Of a stretch of 64,000 nucleotides of DNA, positions 26,092 through 61,624 are shown one piece after another. The stretch spans positions 1 to 64,000 of the forward strand of contig JAFZPM010000014.1 in the NCBI GenBank assembly GCA_017550335.1. Direction: 5' to 3'. The translations under genes were made by a program, and so were the position numbers. The DNA is from Paludibacteraceae bacterium (GTDB lineage Bacteria > Bacteroidota > Bacteroidia > Bacteroidales > Paludibacteraceae). Under the pieces are notes generated by a model that was not told the origin of the DNA, searched no databases, and saw only the letters and a list, made by a program, of their open reading frames with translations. Positions within the stretch are counted from its first letter, which is position 1; the number at the start of each line of letters is the position of its first letter.

Positions 26092-27465
26092 ATGATAGAA
26101 ACCAACCGTATAGAATTCAAGCTCAAATATACAGAAGAGCTAGACATAGAAAAGGAAGTAATCTCCTTCTTAAATTACCGAGAAGGAGGAATAATATACA
26201 TTGGCATTGACGACAACGGGCATCCGAAAGGAGTAGAAGACATTGACAGCGTAGTTCTAAAGATTAAAGACAGAATCCGCACAAATGTCTCACCTTCCCC
26301 CATGGGTTTATTTGATGTTTTGATTGAAAAAGTGGATGGAGTAGATGTGATTAAGATTTTTTTAGCATCTGGCACAGAAAAGCCATACTACAAAACGAAG
26401 TATGGAATGAGTACACGAGGATGTTATATGCGAGTCGGTACCGCATGCGAACCAATGCCTACAGCAATGATAGAAGACCTTTTCGCTCATAGAGTACGAA
26501 ACTCGCTAAGAAACATTCCTTCTCCTCGACAGAAACTGACCTTCCGTCAATTACAAATCTATTATGAATCAAAAGGAATGACACTGAACAATGCCTTCGA
26601 GCAAACACTGGACCTTTTGACAAGCACTGGGCAATACAACTATGTGGCATTCCTTTTGGCGGACGAAAACAATGTTTCGATAAAAGTCGCCAAATACTCG
26701 GGGACAGATCGAACCGATTTGATTTCCAACAACGAATACGGATATTGCAGTTTGCTTAAAGCGACCGATTTAGTTATAGACAAACTAAATACCGAAAATT
26801 ATGTGTTCAGTCGGAAAACAGAAAAATACAGGGAAGACAAACCACTGTGGGACAAATTAGCTGTTCGTGAGGCAGTCATAAACGCGATAGTTCACAACGA
26901 CTATACGAATGAAGTGCCACCAAAATTTGAAATCTTCGCCAATCGATTAGAAATAACCTCATACGGAACAATTCCAATGGGTTTAACAACAGACGAATTT
27001 TTCAGCGGTGTGAGCATACCACGGAACAAAGAGCTTATGCGAGTGTTCCGAGACGTGGAAATGGTGGAAGCTTTAGGGTCAGGTATGCCCGTCATATTGC
27101 GCGAATATGGTCATAAAGCATACGAGTTCATGTCTCACTTTATTCGTCTAACAATAACGGCAAACATGGGGAATGTCCACAAAAATGTCCACAAAAATGT
27201 CCATAAAAATGTCCACAAAAATGACCCTAAAAATGACCCTAAAAATGACCTCAAAAATGACCTCAAAAATGACCCTAAAAATGAAGTGCTAAAAAGACGT
27301 GAAGTTATTGTGAATCTGATAAAAACAAATAACAAATCGTCATATAGTGACATCGCAAGGAAATTAGGAGTCGCACCTGTAACCGTCAAACGTGAACTTG
27401 CAGAGATGCGCCATATTGTGCAACATGTTGGCCCGAAGCATGGTGGCCATTGGGAGTTTTTGTGA
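26092..27465 (+). CDS. AlbA_2 (Schlafen-like) ATP-binding protein with C-terminal helix-turn-helix
   Basis: A 457-residue protein. Residues 1-120 are an AlbA_2/Schlafen-type domain (MIETNRIEFKLKYTEELDIE, VISFLNYREGGIIYIGIDDNG, YYKTKYGMSTRGCYMRVGT). The middle has the RecG-like ATP-binding C-terminal module (LAVREAVINAIVHNDYTNEVP, VEMVEALGSGMPVILREYG). Nine tetrapeptide units (NVHK, then NDPK or NDLK) at about residues 361-396 form a hydrophilic linker to a winged HTH (NNKSSYSDIARKLGVAPVTVKREL). These proteins are annotated as putative transcriptional regulators and are frequent in defence islands; target and ATPase activity are unknown. AT-rich, with its own consensus promoter. Confidence 0.85.
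   Translation: MIETNRIEFKLKYTEELDIEKEVISFLNYREGGIIYIGIDDNGHPKGVEDIDSVVLKIKDRIRTNVSPSPMGLFDVLIEKVDGVDVIKIFLASGTEKPYYKTKYGMSTRGCYMRVGTACEPMPTAMIEDLFAHRVRNSLRNIPSPRQKLTFRQLQIYYESKGMTLNNAFEQTLDLLTSTGQYNYVAFLLADENNVSIKVAKYSGTDRTDLISNNEYGYCSLLKATDLVIDKLNTENYVFSRKTEKYREDKPLWDKLAVREAVINAIVHNDYTNEVPPKFEIFANRLEITSYGTIPMGLTTDEFFSGVSIPRNKELMRVFRDVEMVEALGSGMPVILREYGHKAYEFMSHFIRLTITANMGNVHKNVHKNVHKNVHKNDPKNDPKNDLKNDLKNDPKNEVLKRREVIVNLIKTNNKSSYSDIARKLGVAPVTVKRELAEMRHIVQHVGPKHGGHWEFL
27172..27279 (+). repeat. Nine 12-bp tandem repeats inside the AlbA_2 gene
   Basis: Four AATGTCCACAAA-type units (27172-27219) are followed by five AATGACCCTAAA or AATGACCTCAAA units (27220-27279). Each unit is 12 bp, so copy-number changes keep the frame and only alter linker length. 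Confidence 0.95.
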
Positions 27466-27494: not shown

Positions 27495-28010
27495 TCAATA
27501 ATCATCAACCCCAAAATCCGTTATGAGAAGCGGTGCGCCACCACTGATGGTATAATAGGCGGTAATCGCCTGACTTTCTTGCGGGGGTGTCTCGTCTGTT
27601 TCCTCATCTCCCCACGCATCATTTTCCCACCAAAGTGACACGACACCATTTTTGAAATTGATTTTCATGGAACTATCTGTAGGATAGAATGTATGTCTTC
27701 CACCAGCATAATATTCAGTTAGTTCATAATTACCATTTTGATATGAAAACTCGTAACCCCAAGTTCCATATTTTCCACATGTGTATTCCACAGAAAAAGT
27801 TTTCCCTGAGATCTCTACATCCTCACTAGAAGGGAAGTAAGAGCCTATATACAATGCTTCATAGTTATCGGAATGGAAACAAGCGTCATTCCTTATGTCT
27901 GTCTCAAAATAGCGTCCCTTGTTGAGGACCAACATAAACCCATTTTTTGTCCCATTAAGTAAGATTTCATCATCAACGGTCACAAGGCAAAAAACATTTA
28001 TGAAATACAT
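27495..28010 (-). CDS. Hypothetical protein, possibly 5'-truncated
   Basis: A 171-residue protein of unknown family. Beta-rich, with many aromatic and acidic residues: YEALYIGSYFPSSEDVEISGK, VEYTCGKYGTWGYEFSY, VVSLWWENDAWGDEETDE, and an acidic C-terminus ending DFGVDDY. No signal peptide or membrane helix is visible. Its first three codons lie inside the 72-bp promoter repeat at 28003-28074, so the present start may have been created by a rearrangement and the original N-terminus lost. It faces the AlbA_2 gene convergently. Confidence 0.5.
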   Translation of the reverse strand: MYFINVFCLVTVDDEILLNGTKNGFMLVLNKGRYFETDIRNDACFHSDNYEALYIGSYFPSSEDVEISGKTFSVEYTCGKYGTWGYEFSYQNGNYELTEYYAGGRHTFYPTDSSMKINFKNGVVSLWWENDAWGDEETDETPPQESQAITAYYTISGGAPLLITDFGVDDY

Positions 28011-28074
28011 AATCGAGCATTTCGTTTGTTGGCTCGCCCACTAAGTAGTTGACAAAAATGTTGTATATTTGCAT
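28003..28074 (+). repeat. 72-bp promoter-bearing direct repeat, copy A
   Basis: 67 of 72 bases are identical to copy B at 29180-29251. It contains GTTTGTTGGCTCGCCCACTA and ends with the -7 element TATATTTG (28064-28071) plus CAT. It is read toward the KilA-N remnant and KilA-N gene. Confidence 0.9.
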
Positions 28075-28176
28075 GAATAGTAAAAAAATTTGAATGAGAC
28101 AGGAATCATTCTCAAAAGGATATTTCCAATCATCTGTAATTTTATAATCTATGGAGACAATTAATACCTGAATAGT

Positions 28177-28353: not shown

Positions 28354-29154
28354 ATGGCAAAGATAAAAGTTGAAAATACAGAAATAACAGTCGTTAGCGT
28401 ACAAAACGAAGACTACATCTCCCTAACCGATATGGCACATAGCCAGATGCAAGAGCACATAGTATTCAGATGGATGAGTTTGAAGAGTACTATTGAATAT
28501 CTGGGTGAATGGGAGATGTTGTATAACCCCAATTTTAATTGTACCGAATTCGATACAATTAGGAATGCGGCAGGAAGCAACAACTTTGTTTTGTCTGTCA
28601 AGGCATGGATTGAGCGAACGGGCGCAATCGGCATTATAGCTAAAGCTGGACGTTATGGAGGCACATATGCGCACAGAGACATTGCTTATCACTTCGGCAT
28701 GTGGATAAGTCCGCGCTTCCAACTTTTACTCGTCAAGGAATATCAAAGGCTCAAAACTGACGAACAGAAGCAACTTACATGGACGGCCAAGCGTGAACTC
28801 TCGAAAATCAACTACCGCATCCATACCGATGCCATCAAGCGTCATCTGATTCCAGAAGAGGTGACTCCTGCGCAGTCGAGCACCATCTATGCCGAGGAAG
28901 CAGATGTCCTGAATGTGGCGATGTTCGGCATGACTGCCAAGCAATGGCGCGAGGCCAATCCCGACCTCAAAGGCAATATCCGAGACTATGCCACTATCAA
29001 CGAGCTTATCTGCCTCTCAAATATGGAAAACATCAACGCTGTGCTTATCAATGACGGAATACCTCAGGGCGAAAGGCTTATCAAGCTCAATCAGATAGCC
29101 ATACAGCAGATACAAGTGTTGGTGGATAATGAGAGTAGGAAGTTGTTAAAATAA
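28354..29154 (+). CDS. KilA-N domain-containing protein
   Basis: A 266-residue DNA-binding-type protein. KilA-N fold in residues 1-125: ITVVSVQNEDYISLTDMAHSQ, then a SLKSTIEYLGEWEMLYNPNF spacer, VKAWIERTGAIGIIAKAGRYGG and THR-like AHRDIAYHFGMWISPRFQLLLVKEYQRLK. The helical C-terminal part includes NVAMFGMTAKQWREANPDLK and IRDYATINELICLSNMENINA. KilA-N proteins occur in phages, large DNA viruses and bacterial accessory regions, often near restriction-modification or toxin systems; the role is not settled. Flanked by the two 72-bp promoter repeats, so the cassette may move or duplicate as a unit. Confidence 0.88.
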   Translation: MAKIKVENTEITVVSVQNEDYISLTDMAHSQMQEHIVFRWMSLKSTIEYLGEWEMLYNPNFNCTEFDTIRNAAGSNNFVLSVKAWIERTGAIGIIAKAGRYGGTYAHRDIAYHFGMWISPRFQLLLVKEYQRLKTDEQKQLTWTAKRELSKINYRIHTDAIKRHLIPEEVTPAQSSTIYAEEADVLNVAMFGMTAKQWREANPDLKGNIRDYATINELICLSNMENINAVLINDGIPQGERLIKLNQIAIQQIQVLVDNESRKLLK

Positions 29155-29179
29155 GCAGTTGATCATGTGGACATCAACA

Positions 29180-29251
29180 AAATACATCATCGAGCACTCC
29201 GTTTGTTGGCTTGCCCACTAAGTAGCTGACAAAAATGTTGTATATTTGCAT
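29180..29251 (+). repeat. 72-bp promoter-bearing direct repeat, copy B
   Basis: 93 percent identical to copy A. It carries TATATTTG at 29241-29248, so transcription toward mod would begin near 29254. That gives a leader of about 280 nt that includes the structured element at 29337-29482. Confidence 0.85.
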
Positions 29252-29336
29252 AGACAAAAAAACTAATTTGAAGAAAACAGAGATAGTAAAATATTAACAT
29301 ACTGAGCTTTACGCTCTTATTCTCGAAGTGATAAAA

Positions 29337-29482
29337 TCTGGTAAATTTTTTCAAGTAGCGAGGGTAAGCAAGCGAAAGGTTCACGCCTATGGTGTGAACC
29401 GTTTCGTGCTTATTAGCTACGTCGGTTTACCAGAGCCATTCACTTCTAATAAGCGTCAAAACGAACGGTTCATGCTTTTTTT
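29337..29482 (+). ncRNA. Structured leader RNA with alternative folds upstream of type III mod
   Basis: Fold 1 is nested: TCTGGTAAA (29337-29345) with TTTACCAGA (29426-29434), GTAGC (29355-29359) with GCTAC (29416-29420), TAAGCA (29365-29370) with TGCTTA (29407-29412), and GGTTCAC (29378-29384) with GTGAACC (29394-29400). Fold 2 reuses the 3' arm: GCTTATTAG (29408-29416) with CTAATAAGC (29446-29454), and TGAACCGTT (29395-29403) with AACGGTTCA (29464-29472). Fold 2 is followed shortly by seven T (29476-29482), like an intrinsic terminator. The two folds exclude each other, as in an attenuator or riboswitch. No known riboswitch core was recognised. Confidence 0.65.
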
Positions 29483-29533
29483 GTGCTTATATGGAATGTG
29501 GGCGAATAGCATAAATCTAAATGCGAATACATT

Positions 29534-31099
29534 ATGCCCACACTCAACTGGATAGGAAAGGAGTCGGTAATTAATCATCATCATGATGTACCATTCCGAA
29601 CGTTGGAACAAAAATATACGTTTGGAGAAGGAACCGACGGCAACAAAATCATACATGGCGATAACCTTGAAGCCCTAAAAGCCTTACTTCCCGAATATGA
29701 GGGGCGCATTAAGTGTATCTACATTGATCCTCCCTATAACACAGGTAATGAGAACTGGGTTTACAACGATAATGTGAACTCTCCTAAAATCCGCAAATGG
29801 TTGGGGCAAGTGGTTGGCAAAGAAGCAGAAGACCTCACTCGTCACGACAAGTGGCTCTGCATGATGTATCCTCGCTTGAAATTGCTACAAAGACTACTGA
29901 GCGACGACGGAGCAATCTTTATCTCCATCGACGATAATGAACAGGCGAATTTGAAGTTGATTTGTGATGAGATTTTTGGAGCAGGTAATTTTGTGGCAGA
30001 ATGTGTGTGGCAAAAAAAATATGGACCTGCCAATGATGCAAAATATCTTTCTAATACTCATGAATATATAGAATGTTTTGCAAAAGACATTACCCAATGG
30101 AAACCGTTTTTGATAGAAAGAAATGATGAACAATTATCTGCATATAAAAATCCAGATAATGATCCAAGAGGGTTATGGAGATTAAGTGATTTATCTGCAA
30201 GAACATATTCCGCAAACACAGATTACGAAATAGTTAGTCCTAAGGGTAAAGTATTTTTGCCGCCCAAAAGTCGCTCGTGGATTGTAACAAAAGAACGTTA
30301 TGAAGAATTATTTAAGGACAATAGGATTGCATTTGGAATTGATGGTAATGGAAGACCTATGCAAAAGAAATTTCTCACAGAAGTCAAACAAGGTATTACT
30401 CCTCAGACTTGGTGGGATAGAGAGTTCGCAAGTGATAATAAAATAGCACGTTATGAATTAAAAGAATTATTTCCTAATAATCCTTTTGACACACCCAAAC
30501 CCACCCAACTTATTAAACGTATTCTACAAATATCATCCTCCAAATCCTCCATCATCCTCGACTCCTTCGCAGGCTCTGGCACCACCGCCCACGCAGTCTT
30601 GAACCTCAACAAACAAGACGGAGGTGATCGCAAATTCATTCTTGTGGAGATGGAGGATTATGCCGAAAATATCACGGCGGAGCGTGTGCGGCGTGTGATA
30701 AAAGGGTATGGCGAAGACAAGAATGCTGTGGAAGGAACAGGTGGTTCCTTTTCCTTCTATGAATTGGGAGAACCTGTTTTCAACGAAGATGGGTATATGA
30801 ACGAGAAAATTGGAAGAGAAAAATTGTGCGAATACATCTGGTACACCGAAACCCGCACACCATACGCCACCGCCATACAACCGAACAAATACCTATTAGG
30901 CATACATCAAGACACATCGTATTATTTCTACTATGAACCTGAGAAAATAACCACGCTCAGCCACGATACGCTCAACATCATTAGCGAAAAAGCGGAAACA
31001 TACGTTGTTTACGCAGATCAATGCGTCATTGACAAAGAGTGGCTGTCAGCTCACAATATCATTTTCAAGAAAATTCCACGCGACATTAGTCGTTTTTAA
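29534..31099 (+). CDS. mod: Type III restriction-modification system DNA methyltransferase (Mod)
   Basis: A 521-residue beta-class site-specific methyltransferase, probably N6-adenine. Catalytic motif DPPYNTG is at residues 65-71 (after IHGDNLEALKALLPEY) and the AdoMet-binding motif FAGSGTT near residue 345 (SIILDSFAGSGTTAHAV). This is motif order IV then I, as in Mod proteins. The region between, about residues 145-325, holds the target recognition domain and is clearly AT-richer than both ends of the gene. The C-terminal part follows with YAENITAERVRRVI. In type III systems Mod recognises an asymmetric site, methylates one strand and complexes with Res. res starts 12 bp downstream. Leader as described at 29337. 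Confidence 0.92.
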   Translation: MPTLNWIGKESVINHHHDVPFRTLEQKYTFGEGTDGNKIIHGDNLEALKALLPEYEGRIKCIYIDPPYNTGNENWVYNDNVNSPKIRKWLGQVVGKEAEDLTRHDKWLCMMYPRLKLLQRLLSDDGAIFISIDDNEQANLKLICDEIFGAGNFVAECVWQKKYGPANDAKYLSNTHEYIECFAKDITQWKPFLIERNDEQLSAYKNPDNDPRGLWRLSDLSARTYSANTDYEIVSPKGKVFLPPKSRSWIVTKERYEELFKDNRIAFGIDGNGRPMQKKFLTEVKQGITPQTWWDREFASDNKIARYELKELFPNNPFDTPKPTQLIKRILQISSSKSSIILDSFAGSGTTAHAVLNLNKQDGGDRKFILVEMEDYAENITAERVRRVIKGYGEDKNAVEGTGGSFSFYELGEPVFNEDGYMNEKIGREKLCEYIWYTETRTPYATAIQPNKYLLGIHQDTSYYFYYEPEKITTLSHDTLNIISEKAETYVVYADQCVIDKEWLSAHNIIFKKIPRDISRF

Positions 31100-31111: not shown

Positions 31112-33859
31112 ATGGAACTAAAACAATATCAACAAGATACGCTCGATGATCTTGCAGCCTATATGAGACAAGTTTCTGAGGACCAAGATTTACGCAAGGC
31201 CTATGCTAATTTTTGGATAAAAAAGGGCATTGACATCTCAACCATCGACAATAACCGTTTCATCCATTCGTACGATAATAGTACGGTCCCTGGCATTCCG
31301 CGTGTCATGTTCAAAGTACCGACAGCAGGAGGAAAAACGTTCATTGCCTCAAATGCTTTGAAAGTCATTTTCGACCATCTCCCAGCAGAACAACCCAAGG
31401 TCGTAGCGTGGTTTGTGCCAAGTGACAGCATTCTGAAACAAACCTATAAGAACTTAAGCGACCCAGAGCATCCGTATCGTCAACGCATCAACACACATTT
31501 CAACAACCGTGTTGTGGTAGTCGACAAAGAAACAGCACTGGCAGGAACAGGCATTCAGCCCGGTCAAATACGGGAACAGTTGACCATTTTCGTATTGAGT
31601 GTACAATCATTCGCTGCCAATAACAAAGACGGCAGACGAGTATTTCGAGAGAACTCATCATTGGCCGATTACGCCAAAGCATTTGGGCATGGAGAACGAA
31701 TAGAAGGAGCAGATGAGACATCACTCATTCAAGCCATTGCACACCTAAACCCTGTGGTCATCATTGATGAGAGCCATAACTTCGAAGCGAAACTTCGCGT
31801 GGAAATGTTCCAACAAATCAATCCTAGTTTCATACTCGACCTCACTGCCACCCCACGAGAGAAAAGCAACATCATCAGTTTTGTGGATGCCAAGAAACTA
31901 AAAGACGCCAACATGGTGAAATTGCCCATTATTCTTTACAATCGGGACAATACAACCGATGTGCTTTTCAATGCCATTACACTACGAAACACACTTGAAA
32001 AACGAGCCGTGGAAATACGAAAAAAAGGCGGCCGTTACATCCGCCCAATCGTATTGGTTCAGGCACAACCTAAAAGCGACAAAGACAACGAAACATTCGA
32101 TAAAGTAAAGCAAAAATTAATTGATGCAGGCATTAACGAAGCATGGATAAAAATTAAGACCGCAGAAAAAGATGAGTTGAAGGGACTTGACCTAATGAGC
32201 GAAGAGTGTGAGGTGCGCTATATCATTACCGTCAATGCGTTGAAAGAGGGATGGGACTGTCCGTTTGCCTACATTTTGGCATCCCTTGCCAACAAGACTT
32301 CTCGTATTGATGTGGAACAGATAGTGGGACGTGTACTTCGATTACCCTATACTACCAAACACGCAGATGAATTTTTGAATCTTTCGTACGTTTTCACCTC
32401 GTCAAATAATTTCAGAGAGACGGTAGAATCAGTCATAAAAGGGTTGAACAATGCGGGCTTCTCATCGAAGGACACGCGTATAGTGGAAGCAGATGAGACA
32501 ATTCAAAATAGCCAACAACCCACTCCTGTATCAGTTGGAATTTTTGATAACAACGAAGAAGACAACAATGATGAAAAACAAGGCGAAGATAATCAGGACG
32601 AAAAAAGCACTACCAATGATGGTGGATTAGAAGAAACTGATGATAATGATTTCTCTGCTGATGATTTGAAGCATAAATTAGAAACAGAAGGAGAAAAAGA
32701 AGCATCAAAAAGTAATGACAATGAAGGAAACGATGATGCACAAGAATCCAAGGAGGGATCATCTATTTCAGAGGGAATATTGAAACAAGCACATGAAGCC
32801 AACGACAAATACGAGAAAGAAAACAAAGAAGACAATCACTCCAACATCCCTTCGGATATAAAAGACAAAGTAAAAATGTACACTATAAAAGAGGATTTCA
32901 AGGAAGTCGCAAATCAAATGATTTTGCCTGTCTTCATGAGGAAAGTGAATACATCTAACATTTTTAATCCCCAAGGTCATACCATTAAACTTACGAAAAC
33001 GATTTTGACAGAAGGCTTTGAATTGGAGAAGGCAGACAAAAACATTAATTTCACACGTACAGAAGAGGAAGCTGTAAGGATTGATTTGGAGAAACGTGGG
33101 GAAGGGGAATATGTGCCAAAGCAATATAAAATGAATAGTGAACAAATATCGGCTCTAAGAGAAATGTTTGTAGGGTATGAGATAGAAGGTAAACGTAATC
33201 AATTGATAGGAAAGATTGCTAAACGTCTGCACTTTGACGAGGTGAACGAGCCACACATCAGTAATTATATCCGTGATGTACTAAAAGATAAAAACGATGA
33301 GGAACTAATGGACTTGTTTGATAACGACCTGCTTACAGAACGTGCTTTCAAACAAAAAATAGACTCTCTTGTAGCTGATTACCAACAAAAAAACTTCAAA
33401 ACGTTGCTGGACAAGGGACAGATTGTCTGTGAAGAGATATATCAATTACCTAAAAGTATTATAGCGGGGAATCCAGTTACAGGATTATCGAAAGGACTCT
33501 ATTTGGAGGAAGATGGTGATATCAACAACTTCGAATACAGTGTAATAGCAGCTGTAGCCAATCTCGAAAATGTGCTTTTCTGGCATCGTAACCCTGAGCG
33601 TGGCGAAGGATTCTGCATTAACGGATTCTTAAATCATTATCCTGATTTTATTATACACACCCAAAACGATCATATTATTTTACTTGAAACAAAAGGAGAC
33701 GACCGAGATAATAGTGATAGTCGGAGGAAATTGGAATTAGGTAAATTTTGGGCAAACAAGGCAGGTGACAAATATCGCTACTTCATGGTATTCGACAAAA
33801 GAGAATTAGACGGAGCCTATACCAAGGAGAAATTCTTAGAGATTTTGCGAGAATTGTAG
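31112..33859 (+). CDS. res: Type III restriction-modification system helicase/endonuclease subunit (Res)
   Basis: A 915-residue superfamily 2 helicase-nuclease. Walker A PTAGGKT is at residues 70-76, the DESH box near residue 219, motif III DLTATPRE near 251, and helicase C-terminal motifs NALKEGWDCPFAYI and QIVGRVLRLPY near 375-415. The PD-(D/E)XK nuclease is at the C-terminus: PD at 844-845 and ETK at 859-861. An acidic, Asn/Asp/Glu/Lys-rich low-complexity segment around residues 475-590 separates motor and C-terminal parts, which is longer than expected for a linker. All catalytic motifs are intact, so the system is probably active. Cotranscribed with mod (12-bp gap). Confidence 0.93.
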   Translation: MELKQYQQDTLDDLAAYMRQVSEDQDLRKAYANFWIKKGIDISTIDNNRFIHSYDNSTVPGIPRVMFKVPTAGGKTFIASNALKVIFDHLPAEQPKVVAWFVPSDSILKQTYKNLSDPEHPYRQRINTHFNNRVVVVDKETALAGTGIQPGQIREQLTIFVLSVQSFAANNKDGRRVFRENSSLADYAKAFGHGERIEGADETSLIQAIAHLNPVVIIDESHNFEAKLRVEMFQQINPSFILDLTATPREKSNIISFVDAKKLKDANMVKLPIILYNRDNTTDVLFNAITLRNTLEKRAVEIRKKGGRYIRPIVLVQAQPKSDKDNETFDKVKQKLIDAGINEAWIKIKTAEKDELKGLDLMSEECEVRYIITVNALKEGWDCPFAYILASLANKTSRIDVEQIVGRVLRLPYTTKHADEFLNLSYVFTSSNNFRETVESVIKGLNNAGFSSKDTRIVEADETIQNSQQPTPVSVGIFDNNEEDNNDEKQGEDNQDEKSTTNDGGLEETDDNDFSADDLKHKLETEGEKEASKSNDNEGNDDAQESKEGSSISEGILKQAHEANDKYEKENKEDNHSNIPSDIKDKVKMYTIKEDFKEVANQMILPVFMRKVNTSNIFNPQGHTIKLTKTILTEGFELEKADKNINFTRTEEEAVRIDLEKRGEGEYVPKQYKMNSEQISALREMFVGYEIEGKRNQLIGKIAKRLHFDEVNEPHISNYIRDVLKDKNDEELMDLFDNDLLTERAFKQKIDSLVADYQQKNFKTLLDKGQIVCEEIYQLPKSIIAGNPVTGLSKGLYLEEDGDINNFEYSVIAAVANLENVLFWHRNPERGEGFCINGFLNHYPDFIIHTQNDHIILLETKGDDRDNSDSRRKLELGKFWANKAGDKYRYFMVFDKRELDGAYTKEKFLEILREL

Positions 33860-61513: not shown

Positions 61514-61624
61514 TTTAATTACTGTTTATTTCCAAACCTTGAACCGTGCAGCCGCAATTGCAGAGAGGTTTAAAATGCAATTATCACAATGCGAGATTCG
61601 AAAGTTGTTATAATACTGTATTTT

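Follow-up and report, generated by a model that had tools for sequence, protein, structure and literature searches.

Leader and genes at the locus

The window analysed here, a stretch of 64,000 nt, encodes a type III restriction-modification operon on its forward strand, in which mod (29534–31099), the gene for a type III DNA methyltransferase (PF01555, E 4.9e-43; PADLOC MTase_III, E 1e-219), is followed by res (31112–33859), the gene for the type III restriction subunit (PF04851 ResIII, E 1.4e-14). The core of the mod-res leader lies directly upstream of mod on the same strand (29304–29482), and the leader as a whole extends up to the mod start from the promoter match TATATTTG (29241–29248, + strand). 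This sequence matches TAnnTTTG, the −7 promoter motif of Bacteroidota, and the transcript likely starts at about 29252–29258. Against a median 5′ untranslated length of 32 nt in B. thetaiotaomicron (PMC7366714), the length of this leader, about 280 nt, is unusual.

From 5′ to 3′ on the + strand, the core begins with segment A (GAGCTTTACGCTCTTATTCTC, 29304–29324), which pairs with segment B and could alternatively form a 4-bp hairpin. It is followed by the 5′ strand of an outer helix E (29325–29331; 7 bp with 29440–29446), hairpin K1 (29333–29349), the 5′ strand of an inner helix I (29355–29359; partner 29416–29420), segment B (29360–29387), segment C (29391–29416) and hairpin K2 (29424–29437), where the loops of K1 and K2 are complementary to each other and both stems covary. 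The 3′ strand of helix E (29440–29446) is transcribed ahead of nearly all of segment D (29446–29475), the two having base 29446 in common, and D, the 3′ arm of the terminator, pairs with C and is directly followed by a run of seven T (29476–29482) ending 51 nt upstream of mod.

By sequence, these segments overlap in their pairing: B is complementary to both A and C, and C to both B and D. In the first state, A:B and C:D form a terminator that is followed by the seven T; in the second, B:C forms a long rod together with outer helix E, inner helix I and a pairing between hairpins K1 and K2 (K). Because B and C each serve two partners, the terminator state and the rod are mutually exclusive, as the original prediction of a long hairpin or a terminator, but not both, had it. 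That prediction also placed four nested arm pairs of 9, 5, 6 and 7 bp within 29337–29434; nested arms were indeed present in this interval, but the minimum-energy fold of the rod gave helices of 11 bp (29337–29347/29424–29434), 5 bp (29355–29359/29416–29420), 7 bp (29363–29369/29408–29414), 6 bp (29372–29377/29402–29407) and 10 bp (29378–29387/29391–29400). The two 9-bp 3′ arms that it described ahead of the seven T, CTAATAAGC (29446–29454) and AACGGTTCA (29464–29472), were found to pair perfectly with the descending strand at 29408–29416 and 29395–29403, respectively, and it had missed the outer 7-bp helix E and the complementarity of segment A to B. Folding z-scores were −7.1 for 29337–29440 and −5.9 for 29256–29490, with none of 200 shuffles as good in either case. 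In the minimum-energy rod, K appeared as a plain helix continuing into the K1 and K2 stems; in such a model, the K1 and K2 hairpins may coexist with K or alternate with it.

Further upstream, a 92-nt direct repeat (27994–28085 and 29171–29262; 85% identical), one part of which is the promoter match TGTTGTATATTTGCAT, lies on both sides of a KilA-N gene (28354–29154; PF04383, E 2.2e-21). Upstream of the KilA-N gene is a gene (26092–27465) whose product has a Schlafen/AlbA_2 domain and, towards its C-terminus, a RecG-like match. The repeat pair recurs in another genome (G010), and a further genome (G004) carries the same leader and mod with no KilA-N gene in the 1.5 kb upstream. Elsewhere in the window, at 61549–61582 on the reverse strand, lies a ribosomal protein leader of the S4-Bacteroidia family (RF03139 in Rfam, at 43.2 bits).

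Conservation of the two folds

We built a covariance model, R1, from 15 sequences on an RNAalifold consensus, which corresponded to A:B plus C:D, and used it to align 100 homologues (alignment A7). On A7, 94.2% of cells were paired in the terminator state (84.4% in shuffled and 41–49% in slid alignments), double changes were found in 48 of its 51 pairs, amounting to 442 cells against 113 in shuffles, and helices 1–3 of this state covaried. A7 is fitted to the terminator state and not to the rod; on it, 84.1% of rod cells were paired (71.2% shuffled, 34–43% slid) and 606 cells of the rod held double changes against 254 in shuffles. The number of rod pairs with any double change was not striking (34 against 30.5, with 22 of 500 shuffles reaching 34). 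All four Watson-Crick types were used by each of the seven pairs of helix E.

We then compared the duplex energy of each segment with its own partner and with partners swapped between elements. Among 36 elements below 75% identity, the z-scores of this partner-swap test were −10.5 for A:B, −9.5 for B:C, −14.4 for C:D, −20.5 for E, −19.9 for I and −12.5 for K; those of the whole-segment controls A:C, B:D, A:D, E5:I3 and I5:E3 ranged only from −1.8 to +0.9, and two half-segment control pairings gave +0.3. The result was similar with 51 elements, where an energy artefact compromised the plain test of E and a longer version of the E segment reached −24.4. In a tougher version, partners were exchanged only among the four nearest relatives of each of 82 elements. 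Helices E, I and K retained p < 1e-13, the own partner was better in 66 and worse in 15 of 82 elements for C:D (p = 1e-8), and the stems of K1 and K2 gave p = 2e-5 and 3e-8, respectively. The signal was weak for A:B (54 better and 27 worse, p = 0.012) and not significant for B:C (42 and 40, p = 0.17), and the self-hairpin of A gave none; of the controls, A:C did worse with its own partners than with exchanged ones (p = 0.012), and no significant difference was seen for the remaining three. Support for A:B and B:C therefore comes mainly from the wider comparison, because these segments vary little among close relatives.

Taken over homologous sequences, these comparisons firmly support the view that the predicted terminator and the rod-specific helices are conserved by compensatory change. 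Homologues conserving neither set of pairings would, on its own terms, have refuted the original prediction; what we found instead were compensatory changes in both folds. The accompanying signals were also widespread: a run of at least five T was present in 120 of 132 elements, and the promoter motif occurred within 150 nt upstream in 75 of the 130 homologues with enough flanking sequence (8.3% in shuffled flanks), about half of these 75 having it 60–80 nt before segment A.

Distribution of the leader

A nucleotide search with positions 29160–29533 matched 18 of 61 genomes, including the window's own; in 12 of these the matches spanned most of the core, in the rest they were limited to the promoter region or to short stretches, and the core preceded differing genes in the matched genomes. 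R1 gave a single match in the window's own genome, apart from an opposite-strand match at E 0.08. Because the palindromic model also yields such mirror matches (L105 at E 2.3e-6, others at 2e-5 to 4e-5), which we ignored, counts that include weak R1 matches are upper estimates. Within the family, 163 of 300 genomes had an R1 match at E 1e-3 (an upper estimate). Within the order, the figure at E 1e-5 was 102 of 393, own genome included, and in a phylum-wide sample at E 1e-5 it was 15 of 296, where the own genome is one of the 15 and the weakest matches make the count an upper estimate. We read the best locus in 5 of the 14 other genomes from the phylum sample and found complementary K1 and K2 loops in all five and the T-run in four.

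The names of the order and the phylum are taken from named records that hold near-identical loci. Of the pattern matches in named contigs, 29 of 31 were confirmed by R1, on contigs titled Paludibacteraceae, Salinivirgaceae, Bacteroidales or Bacteroidia, some of them from rumen and horse-gut isolates; the two matches that R1 did not confirm, L054 (Cytophagaceae) and L075 (Roseibium), were dropped. One Phocaeicola massiliensis record was matched when a diverged member served as the nucleotide query, and this species, too, carries the leader. No match to the window's leader was found by nucleotide search among phage and plasmid records, a scan of viral contigs with a C/D-core pattern found none, and the four matches of an A/B-core pattern scan of viral contigs were all rejected by R1. 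The putative leader is present in many Bacteroidales and in a few other Bacteroidota, ahead of many different accessory genes.

Genes behind the leader

For a survey of downstream genes, loci were chosen by match and genome spread, regardless of their genes, and reduced to 76 elements; in 68 of them, a same-strand first gene of 100 aa or more followed within 900 nt. DNA methyltransferase domains were found by Pfam in about 10 of these 68 first genes (N6_Mtase in 4, EcoRI_methylase in 3, N6_N4_Mtase in 3; the total assumes that these are ten distinct proteins). This is far above the two PF01555 genes of the window's own genome, which is the only background used. Other first genes, among the 25 best of 64 families, included those with BACON (3), CsgG (2) and Abi_2 (1), and many first genes, uncounted, resembled secreted proteins or lipoproteins by eye at their N-termini. 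Restriction genes behind the leader included a type I hsdM-hsdS pair (L072), an EcoRI-type methylase (L130) and a type IIG-like fusion (L108), and the leader also preceded GmrSD-HNH (L131) and a helicase-HNH protein (L065). In one locus (L034 6833–9580, G018), res behind the leader appears as two reading frames of about 336 and 561 codons. A radical SAM/SPASM gene follows the leader in L194, and in Phocaeicola massiliensis (L223, OY725981.1, 3999–6129) the genes behind the leader encode a helix-turn-helix protein, a protein of 109 aa and one that by eye resembles a radical SAM enzyme, possibly a modified-peptide operon.

We also approached the question from the protein side. Mod was found in 44 of 200 genomes at E 1e-40, and in 12 of 30 Mod loci an R1 match with E up to 2.1e-6 lay on the coding strand, no more than about 150 nt ahead of the gene. 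These 12 include the window, its near-identical copy in G004 and the R1 build sequences L228, L231 and L241, with four model sequences in all. Two further loci matched at 3e-5 and 4e-4, in the range where mirror matches occur, and 16 of the 30 had no match at E below 1e-3, two of these ending at a contig edge; one locus (L246, E 0.0012) was left out of the count. No leader was found at L232 and L234, which are among the ten best Mod loci with an intact 5′ flank. The four weakest of the 12 (L227, L229, L235 and L243; E 5.6e-7 to 2.1e-6) rest also on an independent descriptor, because mirror matches reach similar E-values. This descriptor holds no fixed sequence and consists of a B-C hairpin, a D complementary to C before a T-run, and at least 7 bp between the flanks. 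It recovered 85 of 132 known elements, and, run on 27 of the 30 Mod loci with the two contig-edge loci and L244 omitted, it matched 13 upstream regions against 0.025 expected in shuffles, including all four of the weak loci.

One of these 13, L238, has no R1 match, and a similar competing-hairpin layout was seen, by eye only, upstream of Mod in L237 and L240; these diverged leaders suggest a larger superfamily. Between the window and G004 (L027, L226), the leader is 99% identical and Mod just 77%. For G006, G007 and G064, the match to Mod is interrupted from about residues 190–200 to 309–315, and we infer that these breaks would fit an exchanged target-recognition domain.

The predicted leader thus recurs before restriction operons and is not confined to them. 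Its recurrence before type III mod, which the original prediction had named as a point of support, held in the 12 of 30 loci matched by R1 and the 13 of 27 matched by the descriptor. The further suggestion of a regulatory layer specific to type III systems, for which establishment and phage attack had been named as conceivable occasions, has to be given up as far as that specificity goes, because most of the members examined precede other genes, methyltransferases making up about 10 of the 68.

A predicted strand relay

We interpret the mod-res leader as a predicted transcription attenuator operating by strand relay, and we put the probability of this reading at roughly three in four; the leader family likely represents a new family of predicted transcription attenuators. 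As the transcript emerges, segment A would pair first with B. Segment C would then displace A to give the long B:C rod, which helix I and next helix E would close before D is made. If this hand-over failed, C would pair with D to form the terminator, and RNA polymerase would presumably stop at the T-run, ahead of mod. Since E would close the rod before D is made, read-through is predicted as the default, and termination would occur if A:B outlasted the making of C, through fast elongation or through a factor holding A:B.

The order of pairing was computed by staged folding, in which the expected pairs were obtained at successive transcript lengths for 100 homologues. A:B led in all 100 once B was complete; at the end of C, B:C led in 91% and A:B still in 9%; and at the T-run, B:C was ahead of C:D in 89%. 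The energies pointed the same way, with −68.4 kcal/mol for the rod and −59.8 kcal/mol for the terminator state in the window, and the rod more stable in 44 of 51 elements (mean −60.5 and −53.6 kcal/mol, respectively; the share of A:B in the energy of the terminating state was 8.5), where the loop-loop pairing K lies outside the energy model and the ON/OFF preference drawn from the energies is a prediction. Because the rod is usually more stable, the predicted 'off' state would require kinetics or a factor. Since the same device precedes many other accessory operons, the signal that moves it is probably a general one with no special tie to restriction.

Several other readings of the leader can be weighed against these data. 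A metabolite or ion riboswitch, in which the E-K1-I-K2 junction with its loop-loop pairing would form the pocket and a ligand would pick the rod or the terminator, seems unlikely to us. Several riboswitches combine junction arms, a loop-loop contact and a terminator, and the conservation of both folds would suit one here. However, in 36 divergent elements, inspected by eye in an alignment that is loose in the junction, the positions conserved at 85% or more nearly all pair in one state or the other and no conserved unpaired core was seen; across the same 36 elements, the K1 loop comes in 28 versions and the E5 strand in 36, and the downstream genes have no evident common pathway. No known riboswitch core had been recognised in the original prediction. 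Rfam 15 gave no gathering-level match on the leader and, below that level, only chance matches (E 3.1–4.1).

The structures might also form no switch at all, serving mRNA stability or yielding a small RNA from the terminated leader, with the overlap of the segments as a by-product. Long rods do protect 5′ ends, and terminated leaders can act as small RNAs. We nevertheless regard this reading as quite improbable: compensatory change maintains each of two folds that exclude one another, which a pure stability element would not need, and the first gene follows on the same strand at the distance given above in 68 of 76 elements.

A small helix-turn-helix protein encoded right after the T-run could act in trans as the switch on the leader or its promoter, and the autoregulator Aca2 is a helix-turn-helix precedent for RNA binding. 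A frame of this kind lies within 600 nt in 45 of 132 elements, according to a profile made from 27 of them, often starting within a few bases of the T-run; yet the window's own genome (G000) and G004, where the leader stands before mod, have no match to the profile, and a single-sequence search of G000 also found none, so that such a protein is very unlikely to be the trigger. Even less probable is antitermination in the style of UpxY or LoaP, with a dedicated NusG paralogue recognising the 5′ portion of the leader. Bacteroidales use UpxY on capsule leaders, and the window's own genome has three NusG-family matches, but none of these three loci has a leader match within 1.5 kb on either side, and only a single NusG match was found, where genome gaps could hide a paralogue, in the leader-rich genomes G018, G030, G061, G064 and G091 (3, 5, 9, 6 and 7 leader matches, respectively, at E up to 1e-3). 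Trp-type attenuation, in which a leader peptide would be translated through A and ribosome stalling would free B for C, is scarcely credible despite an A to D layout (1:2 and 3:4 versus 2:3) that is that of trp, given that ATG frames through A occur in 9 of 132 elements against 44.6 ± 5.3 expected from shuffled 70-nt flanks (79 of 132 against 88.3 ± 4.5 when GTG and TTG starts are added), that the length of A varies by single bases (18–23 nt, mostly 20 or 21), and that the window has no ATG from the likely transcription start to A. As a general trigger, a leader peptide, a dedicated NusG paralogue and an adjacent helix-turn-helix protein are all disfavoured.

For the strand relay, a wider proposal can be made only tentatively, and we consider the odds to be somewhat against it. 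A phylum-wide class of strand-relay switches might gate accessory operons of Bacteroidota, among them restriction systems, regulators and surface or secreted proteins, with no leader peptide, metabolite core or dedicated protein, by reading the speed or state of RNA polymerase, and defence genes would thus be coupled to transcription physiology. If the strand relay is real, bacteria that are common in animal guts and rumens would have a large RNA family that is absent from Rfam and for which both folds of a switch are visible in evolution. A single kind of leader control would then extend over restriction systems of type III, type I, EcoRI type and type IIG, and the way in which Bacteroidota adjust their restriction activity could be tested directly. 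Finding the trigger of the leader would moreover expose a general regulon, since the leader also precedes regulators and secreted proteins.

Comparison with known systems

The literature covered, with most subscription journals, preprints and supplements outside its scope, held no description of the leader or of RNA attenuation of Bacteroidota restriction genes. Structured RNAs of Bacteroidetes, including Bacteroidales-1, Bacteroides-1 and Bacteroid-trp, were found by comparative genomics (Weinberg 2010, PMC2864571); the text searched has no mention of kissing, antiterminator or restriction, and no Rfam family, theirs included where deposited, matched the leader. HMP2_1881 is a 108-bp candidate RNA of Bacteroidetes near radical SAM genes (Fremin and Bhatt 2021, PMC8040213). 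It resembles the present family, compared by description only, in that the P. massiliensis leader precedes a radical SAM-like gene, and for this reason it may be a fragment of the leader family; the family members are about 178 nt long with two folds, whereas sections 8 and 9 of that paper give no mechanism for HMP2_1881.

With the UpxY and LoaP systems, the first of which is also found in Bacteroidales, the leader family has in common the long untranslated leaders and the accessory operons behind them. It differs from them in its occurrence in genomes with a single NusG match and in a predicted bistable RNA in place of a recruitment hairpin. The purine and cobalamin riboswitches are similar in that hairpin loops pair at a junction and a choice is made between terminator and antiterminator, but no conserved unpaired core was seen in the loosely aligned junction of the mod leader family, its loops are variable, its downstream genes share no common pathway and it has no Rfam match.

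In its layout, the leader is like the trp leader of E. coli, which has four segments that pair as 1:2 and 3:4 or as 2:3, with a T-run after segment 4. In trp-type attenuators, 1:2 and 3:4 make the terminator and 2:3 the antiterminator. The mod leader family, unlike the trp leader, shows no sign of a leader peptide and stands before unrelated accessory genes, and its counterparts of segments 2 and 3 are built into a rod to which two additional helices and a pairing between loops belong.
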